45,013 nt of DNA from an uncultured Gammaproteobacteria bacterium (lineage in GTDB: Bacteria; Pseudomonadota; Gammaproteobacteria; CAMYKB01): contig CAMYKB010000036.1 in assembly GCA_947258875.1 (NCBI GenBank), positions 1-45,013 on the forward strand, written 5' to 3'. Numbering within the stretch: the stretch's first letter is position 1; every line of letters starts with the position of its first letter. Positions 18,811-44,176 of this stretch are shown piece by piece. Under the pieces are notes generated by a model. That model saw only the letters and a program-made list of their open reading frames with translations. It had not been told where the DNA came from and made no database searches. A program made the translations under genes and the position numbers.

Positions 18811-21054
18811 TTAATAGTCACTTTCATAGCCAAGGATGCCGCTTTCCAGCAATTCACCCAGTGGCGAGCCAATTTGCGACAACCCCTTGAGGATGAGCTG
18901 TGCTTGTATCGACTCATTGTACTCGTCTTCGCTGTCATTGAGGTAGCGTCGTCCCGCCACACGGAATGTCCAGCAGCAACTCTCATACTCAATTCCGGCC
19001 AGCGCTTCCAGGTCACGTTCCTCGATCAGGTCATAATTCCAGCGTCCCAGGATGCGCCAGCGCTGTCCCAGGGGCCAGGCAAAGGCCAGGTCGGTCTGTT
19101 CAAAATCATCACGACGATAGCGGTGCGCCAGGTTGATAATGCGGTTTTGCTCACTCTGGTAGCGTAATCGGACAGAACTACGGCTAGTTTGTTCCAATTC
19201 TGTATCCCGAAGCATGCCTGCCTGTGCGAGCCACCGGTCGTGCAGATTGAGCGACAGTTCAGCAGCCAGGTCGGAGCGGTGGGTCTCTATGGGTGCAGTG
19301 TTATTCAAGGTTACCTTACGGTCCTCGAAGTAGAAAATCTGCCCAACGCTGGCGCTGAAGGTCTGGTGTCCGTCGCCAAGATCGATAAAGCGCGTCGTCA
19401 GTGCGGCGCTCAGTTGGTTGGCGTCAGCGAGCCGGTCGGCATTGCTAAAACGGTTGTTGCGGAATAATTGTGTGAAACTAAAATCCAGTTCACTGGTATC
19501 GAACAAGGGTATATCCGCCTGGTTTTCGAAGGGCACGTAGAGGTAGTGCAAGCGCGGTTCCAGGGTTTGAGCGCTGTTGCCGTTAGCCGCGATGCGCTCA
19601 AAGATCAGGCCGCTATCCAAACTGGCAACGGGTAACCCTCGCCTGGGAGATGCTTCTGACGCGAATGCAGTACCCTCGATATTTTCCAGTTTATACCCTG
19701 TCTCCCGCCAGCTGACAGCGGGTGTAAGAAAGTAACCGGGTGCCACAAATGGCCGTTTCAGTGTCAACGCCAGATCGTAGCGATCGCCCATAACGCGCTG
19801 GTCGCGATCAAAGCTTACCCATTCACTCTCCCACAGCACATCGAACCCCGCCGGGCCATCCAGAAAACGACCGTCGAGAGAGATTTCCGGTAATCGGCGG
19901 TAGGGTCTGCTTGCTTCGGTGATGCTCTCATCGAGTGTCTGATAATCTTGTACCCGCGCCATAAAACGCCAGTAGGCGTCGCTGTAGCGCAAATTAGCCT
20001 GGCGCTCGAGATGAGTGGTGCTGGCAATGCTCAGCGAGTTGCCAAGGTCTTCAAAATAGTTCTCGTCCGATACCTTTTTGTAATCGAGGTTGCCAGTGAA
20101 GTGTAACGGCAGCTTGCTCTGGTGTTTCAGCACCGCGAAGTAGCGTTCATCACCATAGTCATCATCATCTAGATATTCGAGATTCACGATGCCGCTGTTA
20201 TTTTGAGTGAGATAGCGGAACTCGGGTTTAAACTGGGCACCGCGCTTGCTCAAATATCGCGCGGCCAGAGTGGCGTCCAGATTTGGCGCAATGTTCCAGT
20301 AATATGGAATTTCGAGTTCGGCGCCTGAGTCATTGGAGTAACCCACACGCGGGGCTAGTAAGCCGGACTTGCGGCGCTCATCAATAGGAAAGCGGATCCA
20401 GGGTGTGTACATGAAGGGGATGTGCATGAAACGCACCACGACTCCATGCCCCGTGCCATCGCCGGTTTCGCGATCCAGTGTGATCCGGTTCGCGGAGAGT
20501 AACCAGTCATTACTGCCTGGATTACAGGTGGTATAGGTGGCATTGTCCAGTATCAACAGGTCTTGTGAAGGTCGCCTGATCTGGTTCGCTGCACCGCGAG
20601 CGTGCAAGGGTGCAAAGCTGTACTCGGGTTTATCGAAACGCGCCTGTTTGCTGTCGAGATATAATTCAGCCAGGTTTCCGCTGAGGTTTAAACCCTGGTC
20701 GCTGAACAGGACATTACCTTGTGCCCGCAGGTAGGCGTCCTTATGAATATAATCGGCGTAATCCGCACGTAGGTACTGGCTGTCCTGTCTGGCCTCAACG
20801 TTACCGGTCAGTTGGCTGCTGGCATTGAGGTCGAAGTTCGCCTGATTGCTCTTGAGGGTCAGTTGGCTGCTGGCATTGAGGTCGAAGTTCGCCTGATTGC
20901 TCTTGAGGTGTATATATGAATCTTCCTCTGCGGGACCGACTACAGCAGCTTGTATTGTAGATTCCCCACAAAGTTGCCAGTCCGTTTCCTCAGCCCCTGC
21001 GGCACTGGCGACAATAAGGCCTAGTATGTATGTAGTTAATTTGTTAGCGGGCAC
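18811..21054 (-). CDS. lptD: LPS-assembly protein LptD
   Basis: The product has about 747 residues from a GTG at 21054. That start places the signal peptide (ANKLTTYILGLIVASAAGA) at the N-terminus. The frame extends upstream to an ATG at 21180, which would bury the signal 44 residues in; neither start has a good ribosome binding site. The periplasmic OstA/LptA-like beta-jellyroll (GNVEARQDSQYLRADYADY, then AQGNVLFSDQGLNLSGN) is followed by the beta-barrel domain, including MHIPFMYTPWIRFPIDERRKSGLL. The C-terminus resembles a barrel ending. LptD inserts lipopolysaccharide into the outer leaflet together with LptE. Two cysteines (YTTCNPGS and ESCCWTF) remain for disulfide formation. It carries a tandem duplication, annotated separately. 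Confidence 0.95.
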   Translation of the reverse strand: MPANKLTTYILGLIVASAAGAEETDWQLCGESTIQAAVVGPAEEDSYIHLKSNQANFDLNASSQLTLKSNQANFDLNASSQLTGNVEARQDSQYLRADYADYIHKDAYLRAQGNVLFSDQGLNLSGNLAELYLDSKQARFDKPEYSFAPLHARGAANQIRRPSQDLLILDNATYTTCNPGSNDWLLSANRITLDRETGDGTGHGVVVRFMHIPFMYTPWIRFPIDERRKSGLLAPRVGYSNDSGAELEIPYYWNIAPNLDATLAARYLSKRGAQFKPEFRYLTQNNSGIVNLEYLDDDDYGDERYFAVLKHQSKLPLHFTGNLDYKKVSDENYFEDLGNSLSIASTTHLERQANLRYSDAYWRFMARVQDYQTLDESITEASRPYRRLPEISLDGRFLDGPAGFDVLWESEWVSFDRDQRVMGDRYDLALTLKRPFVAPGYFLTPAVSWRETGYKLENIEGTAFASEASPRRGLPVASLDSGLIFERIAANGNSAQTLEPRLHYLYVPFENQADIPLFDTSELDFSFTQLFRNNRFSNADRLADANQLSAALTTRFIDLGDGHQTFSASVGQIFYFEDRKVTLNNTAPIETHRSDLAAELSLNLHDRWLAQAGMLRDTELEQTSRSSVRLRYQSEQNRIINLAHRYRRDDFEQTDLAFAWPLGQRWRILGRWNYDLIEERDLEALAGIEYESCCWTFRVAGRRYLNDSEDEYNESIQAQLILKGLSQIGSPLGELLESGILGYESDY
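20807..20908. repeat. perfect 51-bp tandem duplication inside lptD
   Basis: Two directly adjacent identical 51-base units (20807-20857 and 20858-20908) encode LKSNQANFDLNASSQLT twice in frame, in the periplasmic jellyroll of LptD. Zero differences between the copies indicate a very recent duplication or an assembly artefact. Confidence 0.95.
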
Positions 21055-21329
21055 GAGGTTTTGGCGGGCGCATGTGTCAGGGGTTATTAAACTGGCGCAG
21101 TTTAACCTGCAATTCACACATAATCGAACCGCAAACGTGAACTGGCAATATGGATTTTCAGGCTGACTGCGCATTCTCAATATATTTAGGGTTGCAGACT
21201 GCTACCGTATTGGTATTTGTTGTGCTAACGTGTGAATCCCTGATGGCAAACTGAATGCCGCAACCGTTGCAGGGTATATGGCAGTATGCGCGGTGTTGCG
21301 TCATCTGACGGCCCGATGCAAAGACTCCG

Positions 21330-21347
21330 TGTAGGATTTTTCCTACA
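21330..21347 (+). promoter_or_regulatory. GacA/UvrY-box-like palindrome upstream of the sRNA
   Basis: TGTAGG-N6-CCTACA is a perfect 18-base dyad matching the layout of the GacA upstream activating sequence (TGTAAG-N6-CTTACA). Its centre is about 65 bases upstream of the predicted sRNA start, the spacing seen at rsmY/rsmZ/csrB-type promoters. Confidence 0.82.
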
Positions 21348-21391
21348 CAACTATTCCCTAAACCCTGACATCATCTTCTTTAATCGTCTGA

Positions 21392-21397
21392 TAGCCT
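21392..21397 (+). promoter_or_regulatory. possible -10 element of the sRNA promoter
   Basis: TAGCCT lies 45 bases after the activator dyad and would give a start near 21404. There is no convincing -35 hexamer, as expected for an activator-dependent promoter. The match to consensus is weak. Confidence 0.4.
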
Positions 21398-21403
21398 AAG
21401 CTC

Positions 21404-21723
21404 ATGATTTTGGGCAAACTGTACCTGTCTTCAGAGAAGAGGGCCGGTGACAGGAAGCCACCGATGAAAGGACTCAAATCAGGACGATACCGCAGTCAAG
21501 GTGGGCAGCGGCAAGGCCAGGGCAGGTCACAGGACAGATAAGGAAATACACAGCAAGGATTTACGGACATAGGCGTAGTCGACGGATAGACGAGTAGATT
21601 TTCAGGGTATGCCAGGACGGGTTAAGGATTAGTAGTTATCTCTTAAGTTTAGGTGTTTAAGGACTCGACGTATTATGCGCTAAGGATAGCGTGGACCCGA
21701 CACAGGATGTGTCGGGTTTTTTT
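21404..21723 (+). ncRNA. CsrB/RsmZ-type CsrA-sequestering small RNA
   Basis: The gene-free stretch holds 14 GGA trinucleotides in about 320 bases, most as AGGA (11 copies) or ACGGA (2 copies). They are regularly spaced with short complementary flanks, such as GGTGACAGGAAGCCACC, where the GGA sits in a hairpin loop. This is the hallmark of CsrB/CsrC/RsmX/Y/Z RNAs, which bind several CsrA/RsmA dimers and relieve post-transcriptional repression. It ends in a strong terminator whose loop also contains AGGA, and a GacA-like box lies upstream. The 5' end is inferred from box spacing and could be off by ten or more bases. Length and motif count fit the family; the linear sequence is not one I know. 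Confidence 0.88.
21695..21723 (+). terminator. factor-independent terminator of the sRNA
   Basis: ACCCGACAC (21695-21703) pairs perfectly with GTGTCGGGT (21709-21717) around an AGGAT loop, followed by a run of seven T residues ending at 21723. Confidence 0.93.
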
Positions 21724-21931: not shown

Positions 21932-23935
21932 CTACAGCAACGGCGCGATGACCAAACTCACAATCGCCATAACATTGATAAGAATGTTCATGGACGGGCC
22001 GGAGGTGTCCTTGAAGGGATCACCTACGGTGTCACCCACGACTACTGCGGTATGCACATCGGAACCCTTGCCGCCGAGATTGCCTTTTTCGACGTACTTC
22101 TTGGCGTTATCCCAGGCGCCACCGGCATTGGCCATCATCAGTGCCAGCAGTACACAGCCCAGCAGGGCGCCGCCCAGCATGCCGCCGAGGGTTTGTGCCC
22201 CCATGCCGAAGCCGACAATCACCGGGGCCATAACCGCCAATACACCCGGCAGAATCATGCGTTTAAGTGCAGCGGTGGTGGCGATATCCACGCAACGCAC
22301 GTTGTCGGGCTGTGCCGTACCTTCGAGCAAGCCCGGTATCTCGTGGAACTGACGGCGGATTTCCTTGATCATGTCGAAGGCCGCGTCGCCCACCGCGGTC
22401 ATGGTGATCGAGGCGACCAGGAAGGGGAAGATACCGCCGATGAAGAGCCCGATCAGCACCTTGGGCTCACTGAGATCGAGGCTGATGCTTTCGCCGCCGT
22501 GAGCAACCTCGGCGAGAAATGCGGTGATGATGGCCAGTGCCGCCAGCGCGGCAGCACCGATGGCAAAGCCTTTACCAATGGCGGCCGTGGTGTTACCGAC
22601 CTCATCCAGGCCATCGGTAATCTTGCGGGTGTCTTCGCCAAGCCCGGCCATTTCGGCGATGCCGCCGGCATTATCGGCAACCGGGCCATAGGCATCGATT
22701 GCCATGGTGATGCCGACCGTGGCGAGCATGCCGACTGCAGCAATACCCACGCCATACAGATTGGACCACAGATTGGAGAAAAAGATGATGCCTGCAATCG
22801 TGAGTATCGGGACCACCACCGACTGCATGCCGAGTGCAAGACCGCTGATCATGACGGTTGCCGGTCCGGTTTCACCACTTTTGGCGAGCTTACGCACGGG
22901 GCCGCCGCCAGTGTAGTACTCGGTGACCAGGCCGATGATGACGCCACCCAGCGCACCGGCAAACACTGCGCCCCACACGCCCTTGCTGATACCGAGCGAT
23001 GTAATGATCACGAAGGCGACAAACATGAAGAGTATGGCTGCAGTAAAAGTGCCTATACGCAATGCGACCTCGGGTGATTTGTTGGCAACCAGTTTGACCA
23101 GCAGGATGCCCAGGAAGGAGCAGGCTATGCCCGCGGAGGCCAGTGCCAGCGGCAGGAACATGAGTTTTTCCTGGGGACCGAGCTGACTGATAATCGCGGG
23201 TGACAGTGTCGATGCGATGGCAATGGTGGCAATAATCGAGCCGCAATAGGATTCGAAGATATCGGAGCCCATGCCGGCCACGTCGCCGACGTTGTCACCG
23301 ACATTATCGGCGATCACACCGGGATTACGCGGGTCGTCTTCGGGGATACCGGCCTCGATCTTGCCGACCAGGTCGGCGCCGACATCGGCGCTCTTGGTGT
23401 AGATACCGCCGCCGACACGTGAGAACAGGGCGACGGTGGAGGCGCCCATGCCAAAGCCATGAATGACCCTTGCGGTTTCCGGATCACCACCAAATATTAA
23501 GTACAGAATGCCCAGACCAAGTAGGCCCATGGCGGCCACAGTCAGGCCCATGATAGAGCCGCCGAAAAAGGCGACATTGAGTGCAGCGGCGGCACCCTTG
23601 TCATGGGCGGCCGTGGTGGTACGGACATTGGCGCGGGTCGCCGCGTGCATGCCAATATAGCCTGCAGCTGCGGAACAGATTGCGCCAACGGCAAAGGCGA
23701 AGGTGGTGCGTGCGCCCAGATCGGAGATCCATATCGCGGCGGCGACTACCAGGGCAAAGATCGCCAGGATCGAATATTCCCGCTTCATGAAGGTCATGGC
23801 GCCCAGGTGGATGGCATCACCGATTTCCACGATCTTGCCGGATCCGGCTGGGAAGCGCATGATATATTGATAAATCGAAAAGGCGGCTATTAATCCGCCG
23901 ACACCCATTACTACCGGTAGCCATTCCAAGATCAT
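21932..23935 (-). CDS. hppA: membrane-bound ion-pumping pyrophosphatase
   Basis: The product has 667 residues and about 16 membrane helices. Catalytic motifs are [18 protein letters not shown] near residues 175-192, [16 protein letters not shown] near 210-225, and the C-terminal [13 protein letters not shown] followed by [17 protein letters not shown]. It hydrolyses cytoplasmic pyrophosphate and uses the energy to move H+ (or Na+) across the inner membrane. The diagnostic segment [14 protein letters not shown] has Ala where K+-independent pumps have Lys, so I infer the K+-stimulated class. AGAGGGC before the ATG is a good ribosome binding site. It is divergent from the soluble pyrophosphatase gene, with a shared 206-base promoter region. 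Confidence 0.97.
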
Positions 23936-35259: not shown

Positions 35260-38160
35260 ATGAGAAAAGATCTGGAAAAAGCCGAACCCATCAAGGGGCA
35301 GGTCGAAGTCAAAAACACCACCTGTTATATGTGTGCCTGCCGTTGCGGTATTCGCGTCACCCTGCGTGATGGCGAGGTCCGCTATATCCAGGGTAACCCG
35401 GAACACCCCCTTAACAAGGGTGTGATCTGCGCCAAGGGCGCCTCCGGCATCATGAAGCAATATTCACCGGCACGCCTGACCAAGCCGCTGCGCCGTAAGC
35501 CGGGTAGTGATCGTGGCGATGGCGAGTTCGAGGAAATCTCCTGGGAAGAGGCGTTTTCCACCATGTCGGAGCGTTTGGAGCACATCCGCAAGACTGACCC
35601 CAAGAAATTCGCGCTGTTTACAGGTCGTGACCAGATGCAGGCCATGACCGGGATGTTTGCCAAACAGTATGGCACCCCCAACTATGCGGCCCACGGTGGT
35701 TTCTGTTCCGTGAACATGGCGGCGGGCATGATCTACACCATTGGTGGTTCCTTCTGGGAGTTCGGTGGCCCCGACCTGGAGCGCTCCAAGTTATTCATCA
35801 TGATAGGTACCGCTGAAGACCATCACTCCAATCCACTCAAAATGGCGCTCTCCAAGTTCAAGCGCGATGGTGGCCGTTTTATCTCCATCAATCCGGTGCG
35901 TACCGGCTATTCAGCAATCGCCGACGAGTGGGTGCCGATCAAGCCCGGCACGGACGGCGCATTGTTGTTGGCATTGATCAACGAAATGATCACCCAGGGC
36001 CTCTATGACCGTGACTTCCTGGTTCAGTACACCAACTCGGCGCAACTGGTAAACCTGGATGAAAAGAGTTCTGAATACGGCATGTTCGTGCGTGCCGAAG
36101 TGCCGGTCGAAGAAGGCTGTTTCGATCCGCAAAATAAACTCTGGTGGGACCGTAACGTCAATAAGGCCGTGGTGACACACACAGCAGGTGCCGACCCGCG
36201 CCTGATGGGCGAATTCAAGCTGGAAGACGGTACGCCCGTCAAGCCGGCCTTCCAGATGCTGGTGGACCGGGTCAAGGAATACACACCGGAGTGGGCAGAA
36301 GACATTACCGGTATTCCGGCCGAGACCATCCGGCGGCTTGGCCATGAGATGGGCGTTACCGCGCGCGATCAGAAGATCGAATTACCGATTGCCTGGACCG
36401 ATGTCTGGGGCAAGGACCATGAAACCGTTACCGGCAGCCCGGTATCCTTCCACGCGATGCGCGGTTTGGCCGCACACTCCAACGGTTTCCAGACCATCCG
36501 TGCCCTGTCGATTCTGATGACCATGCTCGGAACTATCGATACCCCGGGAGGCTTCCGTCATAAGGCGCCGTTCCCGCGGCCAATTCCGCCGTGCGCGAAA
36601 ACGCCCCGCGGCCCCGAGGGTGTCAAGCCGAATACGCCACTGGGTGGCATGCCGCTGGGCTGGCCAGCTGAACCGGACGACCTGTTTGTCGATGACAAAG
36701 GTGAGCCGGTGCGTCTCGACAAGGCCTTCTCCTGGGAATATCCATTATCGGTGCACGGCATGATGCACAATGTGATCACCAATGCCTGGCGTGGCGACCC
36801 GTATCCCATCGACACCATGATGATTTTCATGGCCAACATGGCGTGGAACTCTACGATGAACACGGAAGGCGTCCGTAAGATGCTTAATGACAAGAATGAG
36901 GACGGTGAATACAAGATCCCGTTCCTGATTGTCTGCGATGCCTTCCAGTCAGAAATGACATCGTATGCTGATCTGGTGTTGCCGGATACCACTTATCTGG
37001 AGCGGCACGACGTGATGTCTATGCTGGACCGCCCGATTTCAGAATTCGAAGGCCCGGTGGATTCCGTGCGTATCCCGGTGGTGCCGCCCAAGGGTGATTG
37101 TAAGCCTTTTCAGGAAGTACTCATTGAATTGGGTACGCGCCTCAAGTTGCCGGCATTCATCAATGAAAAGGGCGAACGCAAATACCGCGATTACCCGGAT
37201 TTCGTTGTCAACTACGAAACCGAGCCGGGTTCCGGTATCGGCTTCCTCGCCGGCTGGCGTGGCAAGGGTGGTGAAAAGTTCATGAAGGGCGAGCCTAACC
37301 CGAACCAGTGGCAGATGTACGAGCAAAACAACTGCGTCTATCAGCATGAGTTGCCAAAGTCCTACCAGTACATGCGTAACTGGAATAAGGGTTATCTGGA
37401 ATGGGCGCGGCATCACCGCTTGACGCGTTATGCTGAACCGATCCTGTGCCATATTTATTCGGATGTGTTACAGCAATTCCGTCTGGCTGCGCAGGGTAAG
37501 ACCGATGGCAAGCAGCCGCCGGATCATTTACGCAAACGTATTGAAACTTTCTTCGATCCGTTGCCGTTCTATTACGAGACCTTGGAATCGCAGTTGACCG
37601 ACAAGCACAAGTACCCGTTGAATGCGATCACGCAGCGCCCCATGGCGATGTACCATTCCTGGGATTCCCAGAATGCCTGGTTGCGTCAGATCCATACTTA
37701 TAACTATCTTTACATGAGTCCTGAGCTCGGCACTAAAGGTGGCTTTGAAGACGGTGATTGGGTATGGGTTGAATCGCAGTGGGGTAAGGTGCGTTGCCTG
37801 TGCCGTTTCTCCGAAGCGGTTGAGCCGGGCACGGTATGGACCTGGAACGCAATCGGTAAACAGGCTGGTGCCTGGAATCTGGAGCCAAAGGCCGACGAGG
37901 CATCCAAAGGCTTCCTGCTCAATCATGTGATTTCGGAAGAACTGCCACCGACACCTGAAGGTGAGCATCTTTCCAACTCTGATCCGGTCACCGGTCAGGC
38001 GGGTTGGTATGACGTGCGTGTGCGTGTCTACAAGGCCGAGGAGACTGATGAAAAAATCAGTTATCCCCAGTTCAAACCGCTCAAACCCGTACCCGGGCAA
38101 GAGAAGAAACGTAAACCGTGGATGGCTTATTTCGCGGGCAAAGGCAAGAGGGCCTCTTAA
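35260..38160 (+). CDS. soeA: sulfite dehydrogenase-type molybdopterin subunit SoeA
   Basis: The product has 966 residues of the DMSO reductase family. The N-terminal [4Fe-4S] ligands are Cys22, Cys25, Cys29 and Cys57 (CYMCACRCG and GVICAKG). A likely Mo ligand cysteine is Cys148 in AAHGGFCSVN. The bis-MGD domains continue with IGTAEDHHSNPLKMA, SINPVRTGYSAIADEW and, near the C-terminus, QAGAWNLEP. No twin-arginine signal is present, so the enzyme is cytoplasmic, as in SoeABC, which oxidises sulfite to sulfate at the inner face of the membrane. A polysulfide reductase-like role is an alternative. AAGG before the ATG serves as ribosome binding site. First gene of a three-gene operon. Confidence 0.88.
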   Translation: MRKDLEKAEPIKGQVEVKNTTCYMCACRCGIRVTLRDGEVRYIQGNPEHPLNKGVICAKGASGIMKQYSPARLTKPLRRKPGSDRGDGEFEEISWEEAFSTMSERLEHIRKTDPKKFALFTGRDQMQAMTGMFAKQYGTPNYAAHGGFCSVNMAAGMIYTIGGSFWEFGGPDLERSKLFIMIGTAEDHHSNPLKMALSKFKRDGGRFISINPVRTGYSAIADEWVPIKPGTDGALLLALINEMITQGLYDRDFLVQYTNSAQLVNLDEKSSEYGMFVRAEVPVEEGCFDPQNKLWWDRNVNKAVVTHTAGADPRLMGEFKLEDGTPVKPAFQMLVDRVKEYTPEWAEDITGIPAETIRRLGHEMGVTARDQKIELPIAWTDVWGKDHETVTGSPVSFHAMRGLAAHSNGFQTIRALSILMTMLGTIDTPGGFRHKAPFPRPIPPCAKTPRGPEGVKPNTPLGGMPLGWPAEPDDLFVDDKGEPVRLDKAFSWEYPLSVHGMMHNVITNAWRGDPYPIDTMMIFMANMAWNSTMNTEGVRKMLNDKNEDGEYKIPFLIVCDAFQSEMTSYADLVLPDTTYLERHDVMSMLDRPISEFEGPVDSVRIPVVPPKGDCKPFQEVLIELGTRLKLPAFINEKGERKYRDYPDFVVNYETEPGSGIGFLAGWRGKGGEKFMKGEPNPNQWQMYEQNNCVYQHELPKSYQYMRNWNKGYLEWARHHRLTRYAEPILCHIYSDVLQQFRLAAQGKTDGKQPPDHLRKRIETFFDPLPFYYETLESQLTDKHKYPLNAITQRPMAMYHSWDSQNAWLRQIHTYNYLYMSPELGTKGGFEDGDWVWVESQWGKVRCLCRFSEAVEPGTVWTWNAIGKQAGAWNLEPKADEASKGFLLNHVISEELPPTPEGEHLSNSDPVTGQAGWYDVRVRVYKAEETDEKISYPQFKPLKPVPGQEKKRKPWMAYFAGKGKRAS

Positions 38161-38891
38161 TGACCCAGTTAGCATTAGTTATTGACTTGAATGTCTGCGT
38201 TGGTTGTCACGCCTGTGTCACCAGCTGCAAGGAATGGAATACCTCCGGTATTGCTGGTTCCATGTCGGATGATCGGCCCTATGGTGAAAGCCCGACCGGT
38301 AACTTCTTCAATCGCGTGCAGAGTTTCGAGGTGGGCCAGTATCCCAATACCGAAACCGTGCATTTCCCAAAGTCCTGCCTGCACTGTGAAGATCCGCCCT
38401 GTGTACCGGTATGCCCGACGGGCGCCAGTTACAAACGCGAAGAAGACGGTATTGTGCTGGTCGATTATGACAAGTGCATTGGCTGTAAATATTGTTCATG
38501 GGCCTGCCCCTACGGCGTGCGTGAAATTGACGAGCACCAGAAGGTGATGAAGAAGTGCACCTTATGCGTCGACCGCATCTACGACGAAAGTCTGCCGGAG
38601 GCCGAACGCAAGCCCGCTTGTGTGATGGCCTGCCCGACCAGTGCGCGCCTGTTCGGCGATGTGCACGATCCGGATTCGCAGGTTTCTGTGGCGATCCGTG
38701 AAGAGGGCGGTTATCCGTTGATGCCGGAATGGGGTACCAAGCCGGCCAATCACTACCTGCCGCGGCGCAAGACCAAGCTCAAGATTCACGAAGACGAGCT
38801 TATCCGTGCTGATAATCCGCTTAAGAAGGAAGGTCATCTGCCGACGCCGGATGAGAGTACACCGACCCTTGACGATTCCACTACTTGGTAA
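38160..38891 (+). CDS. soeB: iron-sulfur subunit SoeB
   Basis: The product has 243 residues starting at the ATG that shares one base with the soeA stop (TAATG). An in-frame ATG at 38118 lies within soeA and is not favoured. Four cysteine clusters for [4Fe-4S] binding are visible: CVGCHACVTSCKEWN near residue 12, CLHCEDPPCVPVCPTG near 75, CIGCKYCSWACPYG near 104, and CTLCVDR with a later CVMACPTSARLFGD. It passes electrons from the Mo subunit to the membrane anchor. Like SoeA it lacks an export signal. Confidence 0.9.
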   Translation: MTQLALVIDLNVCVGCHACVTSCKEWNTSGIAGSMSDDRPYGESPTGNFFNRVQSFEVGQYPNTETVHFPKSCLHCEDPPCVPVCPTGASYKREEDGIVLVDYDKCIGCKYCSWACPYGVREIDEHQKVMKKCTLCVDRIYDESLPEAERKPACVMACPTSARLFGDVHDPDSQVSVAIREEGGYPLMPEWGTKPANHYLPRRKTKLKIHEDELIRADNPLKKEGHLPTPDESTPTLDDSTTW

Positions 38892-38917
38892 TTCGCAATT
38901 TAAAATTGGAGTTATAA

Positions 38918-39895
38918 ATGCATCCTGCATTTTCAGTTATTTTCTTAACCACCTTGATCGGTGTCGGTCAGGGTCTTTTCCTGGCGCTTTATACGGGTGA
39001 GATTTACTCGACGCTGGACTTGTTGCCTGCTCAGGGCGGCCAGTTCTATGTGATTGGCAGTGTCATCGCCGTCGTGTTTATGGCTGCTGGCCTGCTCGCC
39101 TCTTTCTTTCATCTGGGTCATCCTGAGCGCGCCTGGCGTTCGGCTGCGCGCTGGCGTACCTCCTGGTTGTCGCGTGAAGTCATTGTGTTGCCCGCAGTGA
39201 TATCTGCGACAGTGATATACGGCGGTCTGCATTACTTCGGCTGGGGGATGACTGCTGATGTTTATGCCGTGAAAGGCCTACTTAGCCCGACGATACTCGT
39301 TGGTGCGGCCGGTACGGTTGCCGCGTTCGCATTGTTTCTATGTACAGGCATGATCTACGCCTGTATCAAATTTCTGCAAGAGTGGGCAAGTTCATTGACT
39401 GTTATCAATTACACCTTGTTCGGTTTGGCCTCGGGTTTCGCGCTGGCAACGGCCTACGCGGCTTACTCGGGTAGTGAATTGGTCAGTTTTTACGGTGTAA
39501 TAGCCATTGTGACCACGGTAGTTGCATTCATTACACGCGTGGCGTCACTGTTTCGTAATGCCCGCATCAAACACAAATCCACATTGCAGAGCGCTCTGGG
39601 TGTACGCCATAACCGTATTCAACAACGCTCGCAAGGTTTCATGGGTGGCTCATTCAATACGCGTGAATTTTTCCATGGCGCATCGGTTGTCTGGTTTAAA
39701 TCGATTAAATGGGTTTTCCTGGTGTTGGTGTTCCCAGTGCCGATTGCATTGCTGGTGGCAGGTATTAATGCAGCCTCATTTGATTTACTGGCAGCAGCGT
39801 TTGTCGTTCAATACATTGGCCTCATCGCAGAGCGCTGGTTCTTCTTTGCTCAGGCGAACCATCCTCAGAACTTGTATTATCAGACGGTAGGCTAA
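38918..39895 (+). CDS. soeC: membrane anchor subunit SoeC (DmsC/NrfD-like)
   Basis: The product has 325 residues and about eight membrane helices, with a DmsC-like N-terminus (MHPAFSVIFLTTLIGVGQGLF). It carries the conserved AAGLLASFFHLGHPERAWRSAARWRTSWLSREV segment near residues 47-79, and a late IGLIAERWFFFAQANHPQNLYYQ. It anchors the SoeAB heterodimer on the cytoplasmic face and hands electrons to the quinone pool. TTGGAGTT is a good ribosome binding site, 26 bases after soeB. It ends before a strong terminator. Confidence 0.9.
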   Translation: MHPAFSVIFLTTLIGVGQGLFLALYTGEIYSTLDLLPAQGGQFYVIGSVIAVVFMAAGLLASFFHLGHPERAWRSAARWRTSWLSREVIVLPAVISATVIYGGLHYFGWGMTADVYAVKGLLSPTILVGAAGTVAAFALFLCTGMIYACIKFLQEWASSLTVINYTLFGLASGFALATAYAAYSGSELVSFYGVIAIVTTVVAFITRVASLFRNARIKHKSTLQSALGVRHNRIQQRSQGFMGGSFNTREFFHGASVVWFKSIKWVFLVLVFPVPIALLVAGINAASFDLLAAAFVVQYIGLIAERWFFFAQANHPQNLYYQTVG

Positions 39896-40099: not shown

Positions 40100-43000
40100 A
40101 TGAATAAGACGCAGTGGGAGAAGATCCAGTCGCTATTTGATGCGGCAGTGCAACTTGATGCGCAACAACGTGTCGCGTTTCTCGACTCGGCTTGCAATGG
40201 GGATGACGAGTTACTAAGGGAAGTTCGTTCGCTGCTGGAGGCGGATAATCTCACCAATAATTTCCTGGATAAAATCGATGCCCCTGCAGACGCCCTGAAT
40301 AAATATATCGATTCTGATATCAAGCGGGTAGGCCCCTACGATATTGTCGAGTATCTCGGTTCCGGTGGCATGGGTGTTGTGTATAAGGCCAGGGATACAC
40401 GGCTGGACCGATACGTTGCCCTTAAATTCCTGCCTGCCTACCTGAATAAGAATGCTATTGCTAAAGAGCGGTTGATTGTCGAGGCGAGGGCCGCCTCCCG
40501 TCTGGATCATCCGAATATCTGCACAATTTATGACATTGGTACGTCTGAGGATGGCGGATTTTATATCGCGATGGCGTATTACGATGGCGAAGATCTTTCC
40601 TGTTCGCTTAGGCGTGGCGCATTGAATGTCGCAGAGGTGTTCGATATTGCGATGCAGATTAGCAGGGGCTTATCCGCAGCCCACGCGCAGAGCATTTATC
40701 ATCGCGATATAAAACCCGCCAATATTGTTGTCACTACGGACAAGCAGGTCAGACTGGTGGACTTCGGTATCGCCAAGATGGATAACACCGACCTTACCGT
40801 GACGGGTGAAAAAGTGGGGACCATCGCCTACATGTCGCCGGAGCAGCTCATGGGCCAGGACGCAAGTCCGCAGATGGACGTGTGGTCGCTGGGGGTCGTG
40901 TTATACGAAATGTTGTCTGGGGGCAGGCCGTTCAATACACAGAAAACACATGAATTGATGTATTCAATTCTGCATCAGGAAATCAGACCGCTGGTCGAAC
41001 AGGCTTCGGGAATCCCGCATTCATTGGCGGCTGTCGTCGATCAAATGTTGTCACGTGACCTGGACAAACGTTATGCCTCTGCGCAAGACGTGTTGGAGTC
41101 ACTCCTTGCTGTGCAGGCGGATACCCAGGAAATGGCACGAATGGGTTCTGCGGTACGCCGTGATATTTCAGTACCAGGTGACACAGGTGCTACTAAATCA
41201 GGTCCGGGCCAGGAGGGTGAACTTAGGCAGATCACGGTGATGGCGACAGACCTTTGCGGGTATTCAGGATTAAGAAGTGAGCTCGATTCGGAATCAAGTC
41301 ACCGTTTGCTGATGCGTTATTTTTCCACCATAGAAAATATTGTCAGGATTTATGGCGGTTCGGTTAACCAACGTATTGGCGATACGGTGGTTGCGGCGTT
41401 TGGTATCCCGTTGGCACATGGCAATGATCCTGAACGTGCGGTGCGTGCTGCCACGGCATGTCATGAGGAGATGGCTCGGCTTGCCGATGAGCTGGCACTG
41501 GATTTACAGGTGCATATCGGTGTGGCGAGTGGCGAGGTGGTTACGTCGGGTAGCGGTGACAGCTTTGCTCAGGGTTACTCGGTGATGGGCGAGTCCCTGA
41601 ATACGGCGGTGCGCCTGGACGACCTTGCAATTCCGGGCGAGACCTTGATCACTGATGCCGTATTCGACGAGGTACGGAAAATATTTGATTGCGAACAAAG
41701 TGGCAGTTTTCAGCCGCGTGGCAAAAAGCAGGCCTCGGCAGTCTGGCGGGTTCGTGGTTTTAGCGGCGGCACCGCGGCGGGTGTGCAACCACTGGTCGGG
41801 CGGCGTCTTGAGGTACGTCAGTTCAAGGAGGTGCTGGAACAGTCACGCCAAACGAATACTGGAAACGTGGTTTATGTGAGAGGTGAAGCCGGTTTAGGCA
41901 AGACACGCCTTGCCGGAGCGTTCAAGCGTCTCGCAAGCCGTTTTGGCTATGCCTGCCATAGTGGGCTGATACTCGATTTTGGCGTTTCCCGCGGCGAGGA
42001 CGCCATCCCTGCGCTGGTACGAAGCCTGCTTGATATTAACGCGGGTGCGGATGAGCCTGTCCGCCAAGCGGCGCTTGAAAGTGCGATCGGCGAACAGCTG
42101 GTGGCCCCGGATCAGCGTGTGTTTATGAATGATCTCCTCGATTTGCCGCAACCGGCCAATTTAAAGGTCATTTACGATGCCATGGATCATGTCAAACGTG
42201 ATCTGGGAATTCGCCAGACACTGGTTCGCTTGACACAGTCGGTTGTGAACCGGCATCCGGTGTTTATCCTGATAGAGGATTTGCACTGGTCCGATCGTTC
42301 TGTGCTGGAACACCTTGCCGAGATCATGCGTATCACAATGGAAGCTCCGCTGGTTATCGTACTGACGTCCCGGCACGAAAATGATCCGTTAATGACAGAA
42401 TGGAAACAAATCATCAAAGATATTCCCAGGATAATCATTGATCTCATGCCCTTGCCAAAACGGGATGCAATGACGCTGGCGAAACAGTTCGCCGAGCTCG
42501 ATACCGATTATGGCCGTCAGTGTGTCGAACGTGCCCAGGGTAATCCATTATTCCTTGAACAATTGTTGCACAATGCCAGTAAGGAAAATGAAAATAGTTT
42601 GCCGGCGTCATTGCAGAGTCTGGTGCTGGAGCGCATGGATAAATTATCGCCCAGGGACCGCAAGGCGATACGTGCCGCAGCAATTCTTGGGCAACGCTTT
42701 TCGCTTGAGGCACTGCGTTATGTGATCGATGACCCCAATTATCGTTGCGACGACCTCGTCGAGCATCACATGATTCGTTCGCGTGGGCCGGACTATTTAT
42801 TCGTACATGCGTTGATACAGGAGGGCGTCTATCTCTCTCTGCTTAAAGCAATGAAGCGCGAGCTGCATCACCGCGCCTCCGACTGGTTTATCCATCGCGA
42901 CAGCGTACTGCATGCCGAACACCTGGACAGGGCAGATGATGCCCTTGCGCCAAAGGCCTATTACCGCGCCGCTTCAGAACAGGCGTCGTATTATCATTTT

Positions 43001-44176
43001 GACAAGGCGATACAGCTCATACAGCGAGGGCAGGAGATCGCATCCAGTGAGCAGGACCGCTATGTCCTGAAACGATTGCTGGGTGATGTGCAAAGCGATA
43101 TGGGCGCGATGACGGAAGCGGCCGAGGCCTATGATGGAGCACTGGAGGCGGCCAGTGACGATGCGGAGCGATGCAGCGCGTGGATCGGTCTGGCGCATTG
43201 CTATGATGTGGCCGATCGTCATGATGATGCCATGGCGATGCTCCAACAGGCGGAGCGGGCCGCCACGCAATATAACCAGCTTGAACAACTGGCGCAGGTG
43301 TATTATCAACGTGGCAATTTATTGTTTCCTCGGGGTGAAATCGAGGCCTGCAAGCATGAGCATGGTCTCGCGCTGCAATATGCCAAACAAATCGATTCGC
43401 CGTTGCATGAAGCCCGTGCACTCAGCGGCCTGGGTGATGCGGAATATGCGGCAGGGCGCATGTTAAGTGCCTATGAGTATTTTCAGCGCTGTCTGCAACT
43501 CTGCGAGCAACATGCCCTGGGCCGGGTCGAGGCGGCAAACCGTTTTATGCTTGGTACAGTGCGTATCTACCTCAATGAGCTCGATGGCGCGTTGCAGGAT
43601 TCGCTCGATTCGGCCGAGGCCGCGGCGCGCGTGGGCCACGTGCGCGCGGAAATTGTGTCGCGCCTCACGGCAAGCTGGATTCTGCTGGACCAGGGAAAAC
43701 TGGACCCGGCGCGCGAGCAGGTGGAGCTGGGACTAGCGCTCACCGAAGATCTGGGTGCCAAACGTTTCGAGCCGTTTCTGAATGAAAGTAAAGCGCGTAT
43801 CCTGATTGCCGAAGGTCAGCGCGAAGCCGCATTAAGCCTGGCTGAAGAGGCCATGGCCATCTCGCGCGAAACCGGTGTCGCCTTTATCGGCCCCTGGATA
43901 CTGGGCACCATCGCCCTGGCAAGTGACGATGACACCCAACGCAACGCCGCCCTGGAAGAAGCAGAAGAGCTATTACGCGAAGGCTGCGTGGGCCATAACT
44001 ATTACCGCTTTTACCGTGCCGCGATCGAATGCTCCCTAAAACACAAGGAATGGGACCGCGCTGAGTACTACGCTGACTGCCTCGAAGAATACACATCACC
44101 AGAACCTAACCCGTGGGCGGATTACTATATCGAACGGGGAAGGGTTCTAGCGGCGCAAGGCCGTGGGTCGGGGTAA
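40100..44176 (+). CDS. Ser/Thr kinase - class III cyclase-like - AAA NTPase - TPR hybrid regulator
   Basis: The product has 1358 residues. A helical N-terminus (1-78) precedes a Hanks-type kinase (80-340): GSGGMGVVY (87-95), Lys109, HRDIKPAN (201-208), DFG (221-223) and SPEQ (246-249). A class III cyclase-like domain follows (about 375-553), with a metal-binding Asp in MATDLCGYSG, a second in RIGDTVVAAFG, and NTAVRL for the Asn/Arg pair. The usual substrate Lys before GD is Gln here, so nucleotide choice or activity is uncertain. An ATPase module follows with Walker A GEAGLGKT (595-602) and Walker B FILIEDLHWSD. TPR-like helical repeats fill residues about 960-1350. It has no membrane segment. 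It may be a cytoplasmic signal integrator. The upstream ATG at 40096 is out of frame. Confidence 0.92.
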   Translation: MNKTQWEKIQSLFDAAVQLDAQQRVAFLDSACNGDDELLREVRSLLEADNLTNNFLDKIDAPADALNKYIDSDIKRVGPYDIVEYLGSGGMGVVYKARDTRLDRYVALKFLPAYLNKNAIAKERLIVEARAASRLDHPNICTIYDIGTSEDGGFYIAMAYYDGEDLSCSLRRGALNVAEVFDIAMQISRGLSAAHAQSIYHRDIKPANIVVTTDKQVRLVDFGIAKMDNTDLTVTGEKVGTIAYMSPEQLMGQDASPQMDVWSLGVVLYEMLSGGRPFNTQKTHELMYSILHQEIRPLVEQASGIPHSLAAVVDQMLSRDLDKRYASAQDVLESLLAVQADTQEMARMGSAVRRDISVPGDTGATKSGPGQEGELRQITVMATDLCGYSGLRSELDSESSHRLLMRYFSTIENIVRIYGGSVNQRIGDTVVAAFGIPLAHGNDPERAVRAATACHEEMARLADELALDLQVHIGVASGEVVTSGSGDSFAQGYSVMGESLNTAVRLDDLAIPGETLITDAVFDEVRKIFDCEQSGSFQPRGKKQASAVWRVRGFSGGTAAGVQPLVGRRLEVRQFKEVLEQSRQTNTGNVVYVRGEAGLGKTRLAGAFKRLASRFGYACHSGLILDFGVSRGEDAIPALVRSLLDINAGADEPVRQAALESAIGEQLVAPDQRVFMNDLLDLPQPANLKVIYDAMDHVKRDLGIRQTLVRLTQSVVNRHPVFILIEDLHWSDRSVLEHLAEIMRITMEAPLVIVLTSRHENDPLMTEWKQIIKDIPRIIIDLMPLPKRDAMTLAKQFAELDTDYGRQCVERAQGNPLFLEQLLHNASKENENSLPASLQSLVLERMDKLSPRDRKAIRAAAILGQRFSLEALRYVIDDPNYRCDDLVEHHMIRSRGPDYLFVHALIQEGVYLSLLKAMKRELHHRASDWFIHRDSVLHAEHLDRADDALAPKAYYRAASEQASYYHFDKAIQLIQRGQEIASSEQDRYVLKRLLGDVQSDMGAMTEAAEAYDGALEAASDDAERCSAWIGLAHCYDVADRHDDAMAMLQQAERAATQYNQLEQLAQVYYQRGNLLFPRGEIEACKHEHGLALQYAKQIDSPLHEARALSGLGDAEYAAGRMLSAYEYFQRCLQLCEQHALGRVEAANRFMLGTVRIYLNELDGALQDSLDSAEAAARVGHVRAEIVSRLTASWILLDQGKLDPAREQVELGLALTEDLGAKRFEPFLNESKARILIAEGQREAALSLAEEAMAISRETGVAFIGPWILGTIALASDDDTQRNAALEEAEELLREGCVGHNYYRFYRAAIECSLKHKEWDRAEYYADCLEEYTSPEPNPWADYYIERGRVLAAQGRGSG

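Follow-up and report, generated by a model that had tools for sequence, protein, structure and literature searches.

A predicted GacA-activated, CsrB/RsmZ-type CsrA sponge RNA in a gammaproteobacterial sulfur oxidiser, and its counterparts beside ttcA

Does the GGA-rich stretch between lptD and hppA of an uncultured gammaproteobacterium encode one of the RNAs that hold CsrA in check? CsrA is a global RNA-binding regulator whose circuits control lifestyle switching, and their RNA antagonists evolve fast, so family models miss them beyond a few model groups. The DNA analysed here, the window, is a stretch of 45,013 nt, in which a sequence-only reading had proposed an unannotated CsrB/RsmZ-like sRNA gene with a GacA box at 21330-21723; these coordinates proved correct on re-reading. 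We consider it highly probable that 21400-21723 on the plus strand specifies a GacA-activated CsrA sponge RNA of the CsrB/RsmZ type, with transcription and CsrA binding predicted from the sequence. The candidate is a real, hitherto unannotated and very probably functional csr-type gene.

A GGA-rich unit between lptD and hppA

The features of the locus are as follows.

18811-21180, minus strand: lptD, the divergent neighbour, followed by surA and pdxA; outside the sRNA, and may share its operator region
21330-21347, no strand: GacA/UvrY-type operator TGTAGGATTTTTCCTACA, a perfect dyad TGTAGG-N6-CCTACA (genome pattern search)
21365-21394, plus strand: tentative candidate promoter CTGACA-N17-CTGATAG (from the sequence; both elements follow the box at equal spacing in locus L174)
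21400-21723, plus strand: predicted CsrA-sponge sRNA of ~320 nt (from GGA contexts), its 5' end uncertain by tens of nucleotides
21445-21463, plus strand: hairpin CGGTG-ACAGGAAGC-CACCG, predicted CsrA site (local hairpin scan, fold)
21657-21671, plus strand: block TTAAGGACTCGACGT, shared with a second copy in the genome (TTAGGGACTCGACGT; pairwise alignment, blastn)
21676-21693, plus strand: hairpin around CGCT-AAGGAT-AGCG with a canonical ANGGAN hexaloop, predicted CsrA site (local hairpin scan, fold)
21693-21723, plus strand: intrinsic terminator with AGGA at the loop and 7 T (sequence, fold, terminator scan)
21932-23935, minus strand: hppA, membrane pyrophosphatase, the convergent neighbour

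The perfect upstream dyad that had been described is present, and it is the sole exact TGTARG-N6-CYTACA site in the 3.0-Mb genome; its centre lies ~60 nt from the presumed start of the RNA. A scan for sigma-70 consensus promoters at the locus returned none above threshold. The region is gene-free, as had been claimed: the longest plus-strand open reading frame inside the candidate has 45 codons' worth of product (45 aa), and none is convincing. Within the neighbouring lptD coding sequence, at window positions 20810-20910, a tandem duplication of ~51 bp repeats LKSNQANFDLNASSQLT near the N terminus.

Between 21400 and 21725, GGA occurs 14 times on the plus strand, the number reported from the sequence alone, and 0 times on the minus strand. 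The bare trinucleotide is in mild excess (14 against 10.1 expected; 326 of 5000 dinucleotide shuffles), and the contexts that CsrA prefers stand out far more clearly, with 11 AGGA against 3.6 expected (1 of 5000 dinucleotide-preserving shuffles) and 13 occurrences of A[AC]GGA or C[AG]GGA against 2.8 (0 of 5000). The runner-up 300-nt stretch of the window holds 5 AGGA. By the identical context measure, E. coli CsrB scores 13 against 3.8 expected (0 of 2000 shuffles), which is comparable. The locus thus combines CsrA-like GGA contexts above composition with a free-standing non-coding gene that ends in an intrinsic terminator.

The perfect terminator with AGGA in its loop is likewise borne out, with a 12-bp stem (21693-21719), GGA at the tip and a run of 7 T reaching 21723. 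The further statement that many GGA motifs sit in hairpin loops finds weak support. Clear local loops contain 3 of the 14 (two hairpins and the terminator), a number equalled or exceeded in 109 of 1000 shuffles; accessibility does favour the motifs, the unpaired fraction being 0.62 for GGA and 0.43 for the rest of the RNA (8 of 200 shuffles as high).

No Rfam family matched the window at the gathering threshold, including RF00018 (CsrB), RF00084 (CsrC), RF00166 (PrrB_RsmZ) and RF00195 (RsmY), in line with the guess that the linear sequence is unfamiliar. When the cut-off was relaxed to E<=10, no Csr/Rsm family appeared at the locus, only a sub-threshold SdsR match and two chance matches. The candidate is therefore outside the Rfam families by test; yet, bench properties aside, it carries the features by which the functional class is defined, hairpin-loop display of GGA being the weak one among them.

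The host circuit and a second copy beside ttcA

The genome to which the window belongs (3.0 Mb, 98.5% complete) was searched for the proteins that such an RNA would serve, as the sequence-only reading had advised, and both csrA and gacA/uvrY were found; the reading thus survives its own refuting case of a genome lacking csrA. csrA is present once (G000:C30:49652-49807), after an aspartokinase gene, and scores 118.7 against a cut-off of 73 with NF002469. The GacA/UvrY protein has a best UvrY match of 54% identity and passes the UvrY/SirA/GacA equivalog cut-off (NF007018, 284.8 against 280); its gene is one gene away from uvrC. A hybrid kinase of 913 aa has BarA as its best family across the full length and is below the NCBI BarA cut-off (547.8 against 890); its gene adjoins a cysM-like gene, and the gacS-cysM pairing is familiar from Pseudomonas. 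The GacS/GacA-plus-operator arrangement is thus represented by a regulator above its cut-off, a full-length kinase under its own and the perfect dyad.

The guess that the host oxidises sulfur also fared well, since soxB and dsrA are both present above cut-off, which justifies the label. The window contains, at 35260-39895, a three-gene molybdopterin oxidoreductase operon (A, B and C subunits) that resembles SoeABC-type sulfite oxidation complexes, with no NCBIfam equivalog above cut-off. At 40100-44176 it encodes a 1358-aa protein in which a Ser/Thr kinase is fused to further regions, cyclase-like and of the ATPase/TPR kind; the TOMM system kinase/cyclase fusion family comes closest, but its cut-off is not reached.

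Nine TGTARG-N6-CYTACA boxes with one mismatch occur in the genome, and only one of them heads a GGA cluster. It lies on the minus strand at G000:C19:53341, just before ttcA, with the operator CGTAGGACGTTTCCTACA (one mismatch). Seventeen GGA follow within 400 nt, compared with 2-8 at the other one-mismatch boxes, and the unit ends in a strong hairpin-plus-T-run terminator. Operator and terminator are 374 nt apart in this copy and 376 nt apart in the window copy. According to alignment and blastn, the two have in common the operator, GGACTCGACGT/TTARGGACTCGACGT, CAGCAAGGATT and the terminator end, and the remainder has diverged. Individually the shared pieces carry little weight (blastn E 0.006-0.07), but their joint occurrence in identical order makes common descent of the two copies likely. 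The Csr/Rsm assignment draws its strongest single support from the box search, which took no account of GGA content and yet yielded a second unit built alike; the many relatives with matching anatomy described below add further weight. The search covered boxes within one mismatch, so that a third copy with a weaker box could escape it.

Recurrence in other gammaproteobacterial families

Searches of 93 and then 368 other genomes, all class-level relatives of the host, gave no nucleotide homologue of the window copy, only chance matches such as terminators. Likewise, 80 hppA loci from named genomes held no GGA-rich unit with a box; a box in L053 was rejected as chance, there being no GGA-rich unit of the expected anatomy at that place. 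When TtcA served as bait, perfect boxes came to light in two genomes from other families; they lie ~300 bp upstream of ttcA and are accompanied by 10 GGA and a terminator.

The pattern TGTAGGA-N4-TCCTACA was found at 42 sites in 36 of 369 gammaproteobacterial genomes, and a reversed-pattern control gave 2. To count as a unit, a site had to show, 150-470 nt beyond the box, a hairpin and T run resembling a terminator, and to have at least 6 GGA, with GGA at least 2.5 times as frequent as TCC; away from the box, this rule is satisfied at 0.6% (0.006) per strand-site. Such a one-sided, GGA-rich, terminated unit follows 18 of the 41 examined boxes, the window included, in 13 families, where ~0.5 would be expected under a rule that was devised after the sequences had been inspected. 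Homologues of pip, dtd or ttcA, which mark the locus of the host's second copy, flank 14 of the 41, and neighbour and unit occur together in ~8 families, counting the host's second copy and the near-box case L132. No examined box lies beside lptD or hppA except the window's own. Because pip, dtd and ttcA recur at box loci and lptD and hppA do not, the ttcA/pip-linked copy appears to be the ancestral one, from which the window copy would derive, most simply as a relocated, diverged duplicate.

The relatives are too diverged in sequence for meaningful alignment, and Rfam gave no match on 34 related loci (control E. coli CsrB, 380 bits). L158, L159 and L160 (family f158) have very long GGA-rich units, with motifs beyond 430 nt past the box and a T-run partway, and are possibly giant or tandem csr RNAs. 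L164 and L181 (family f44) share a nearly identical GGA-rich stretch, GCAGGGTGGCGAGGGAGTGACCCAGGGAAATG..., ~170 nt past the box and after an AT-rich leader, and L187 and L188 (family f155) have units with 14-15 GGA that adjoin dtd and carry the common operator TGTAGGACATRTCCTACA.

What the case adds to the known class is a conserved position for csr sRNA genes, in the order pip-dtd / sRNA / ttcA, together with the TGTAGG operator variant, both missed by Rfam-based annotation; in partial literature coverage, we found no description of this chromosomal position for a csr sRNA. Combining operator and synteny, a simple recipe, exposes genes of this type in about a dozen other families in which Rfam reports none. 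We lean towards the view that these loci represent a broad, Rfam-invisible csr sRNA lineage outside the model groups, with the TGTAGGA-N4-TCCTACA operator, the pip-dtd/sRNA/ttcA anchor in many families and relocated copies such as the window's. If this is true, one could trace where csrB-type genes lay ancestrally in the chromosome even though their sequences cannot be aligned.

Competing readings, proposed role and known systems

Three other readings of the window locus were weighed. The best of them, which we regard as improbable, takes the window copy for a duplicate of the ttcA-linked sRNA that has decayed or fallen silent, its anatomy inherited and the gene no longer of consequence. The absence of an orthologue among the 368 other genomes and the weak promoter would fit such a fate. 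Against it, GGA motifs and dyad would be expected to erode under decay, and the window copy has the better version of most parts: a perfect box, 13 core motifs against 8 in the ttcA-linked copy, and a clean terminator. Even less probable is a GacA-regulated base-pairing sRNA of the Hfq or ProQ type, whose GGA repeats would be incidental to a purine-rich sequence. SdsR/RyeB (RF00111) does match weakly, at 22.2 bits against a cut-off of 38 (E 0.17) and confined to the 3' end and terminator; however, the core motifs are enriched far above composition-preserving shuffles, the second copy retains its GGA sites though most of its sequence differs, and the genome encodes csrA. The third reading, a very improbable one, makes the box an operator of the divergent lptD-surA operon and denies that the GGA-rich stretch is a gene. 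The box does lie ~150-270 bp upstream of lptD on its other side and is elsewhere also divergent to pip, but GGA enrichment and a strong terminator are confined to the sRNA side, with the spacing of the second copy, and the same one-sided arrangement recurs at the 18 boxes counted above. The operator may nonetheless be used in both directions, for the sRNA and for lptD-surA.

As a GacA-activated CsrA sponge, the RNA would act as follows. The BarA/GacS-like kinase would phosphorylate the GacA/UvrY orthologue, which would bind 21330-21347 and activate transcription from ~21400; the transcript would terminate at 21723, its GGA sites would bind several CsrA dimers, and CsrA would thereby be titrated off mRNAs. 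The host would have two such genes, one at the pip-dtd / sRNA / ttcA locus common to several other families and one at the lptD-hppA locus. A single sulfur oxidiser without near relatives in the collection would accordingly possess a full circuit of CsrA, GacA, GacS-like kinase and two predicted sponge RNAs.

The functional class itself (CsrB/CsrC/RsmX/Y/Z) is known, and the candidate most likely adds a member to it, not a new kind of system. Prediction of such RNAs from GGA motifs and structure has already been published for other species (PMC5568370). E. coli CsrB (RF00018) titrates ~18 CsrA subunits through repeated CAGGA(U/A/C)G elements and is activated by phosphorylated UvrY (PMC7652899). 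The candidate resembles it in being intergenic, 300-370 nt long and terminated intrinsically, in its many GGA in A/C-rich context and in an upstream inverted-repeat UvrY/GacA operator, which in csrB is TGTGAGAGATCTCTTACA at -191. It differs in having 14 GGA instead of 22, in their less consistent exposure (unpaired fraction 0.62 against 0.80 in CsrB), in the lack of a covariance-model match, in the TGTAGG/CCTACA operator and in its genomic locus.

RsmX, RsmY and RsmZ of Pseudomonas are ~110-180 nt long. They share with the candidate a GacA upstream activating sequence, GGA sites and membership of a small gene family per genome; the candidate departs from them in its length of ~320 nt, the absence of an Rfam match and half-sites that are each one base different, the Pseudomonas operator being TGTAAG-N6-CTTACA, at -75 for rsmY and -196 for rsmZ (PMC4950607). 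A parallel to a relocated copy is found in Vibrio, where csrB has multiplied through duplication and relocation and synteny distinguishes the several copies per genome (PMC6262261); the host's two copies, by contrast, share little identity except in the operator, in two short blocks and at the terminator end.
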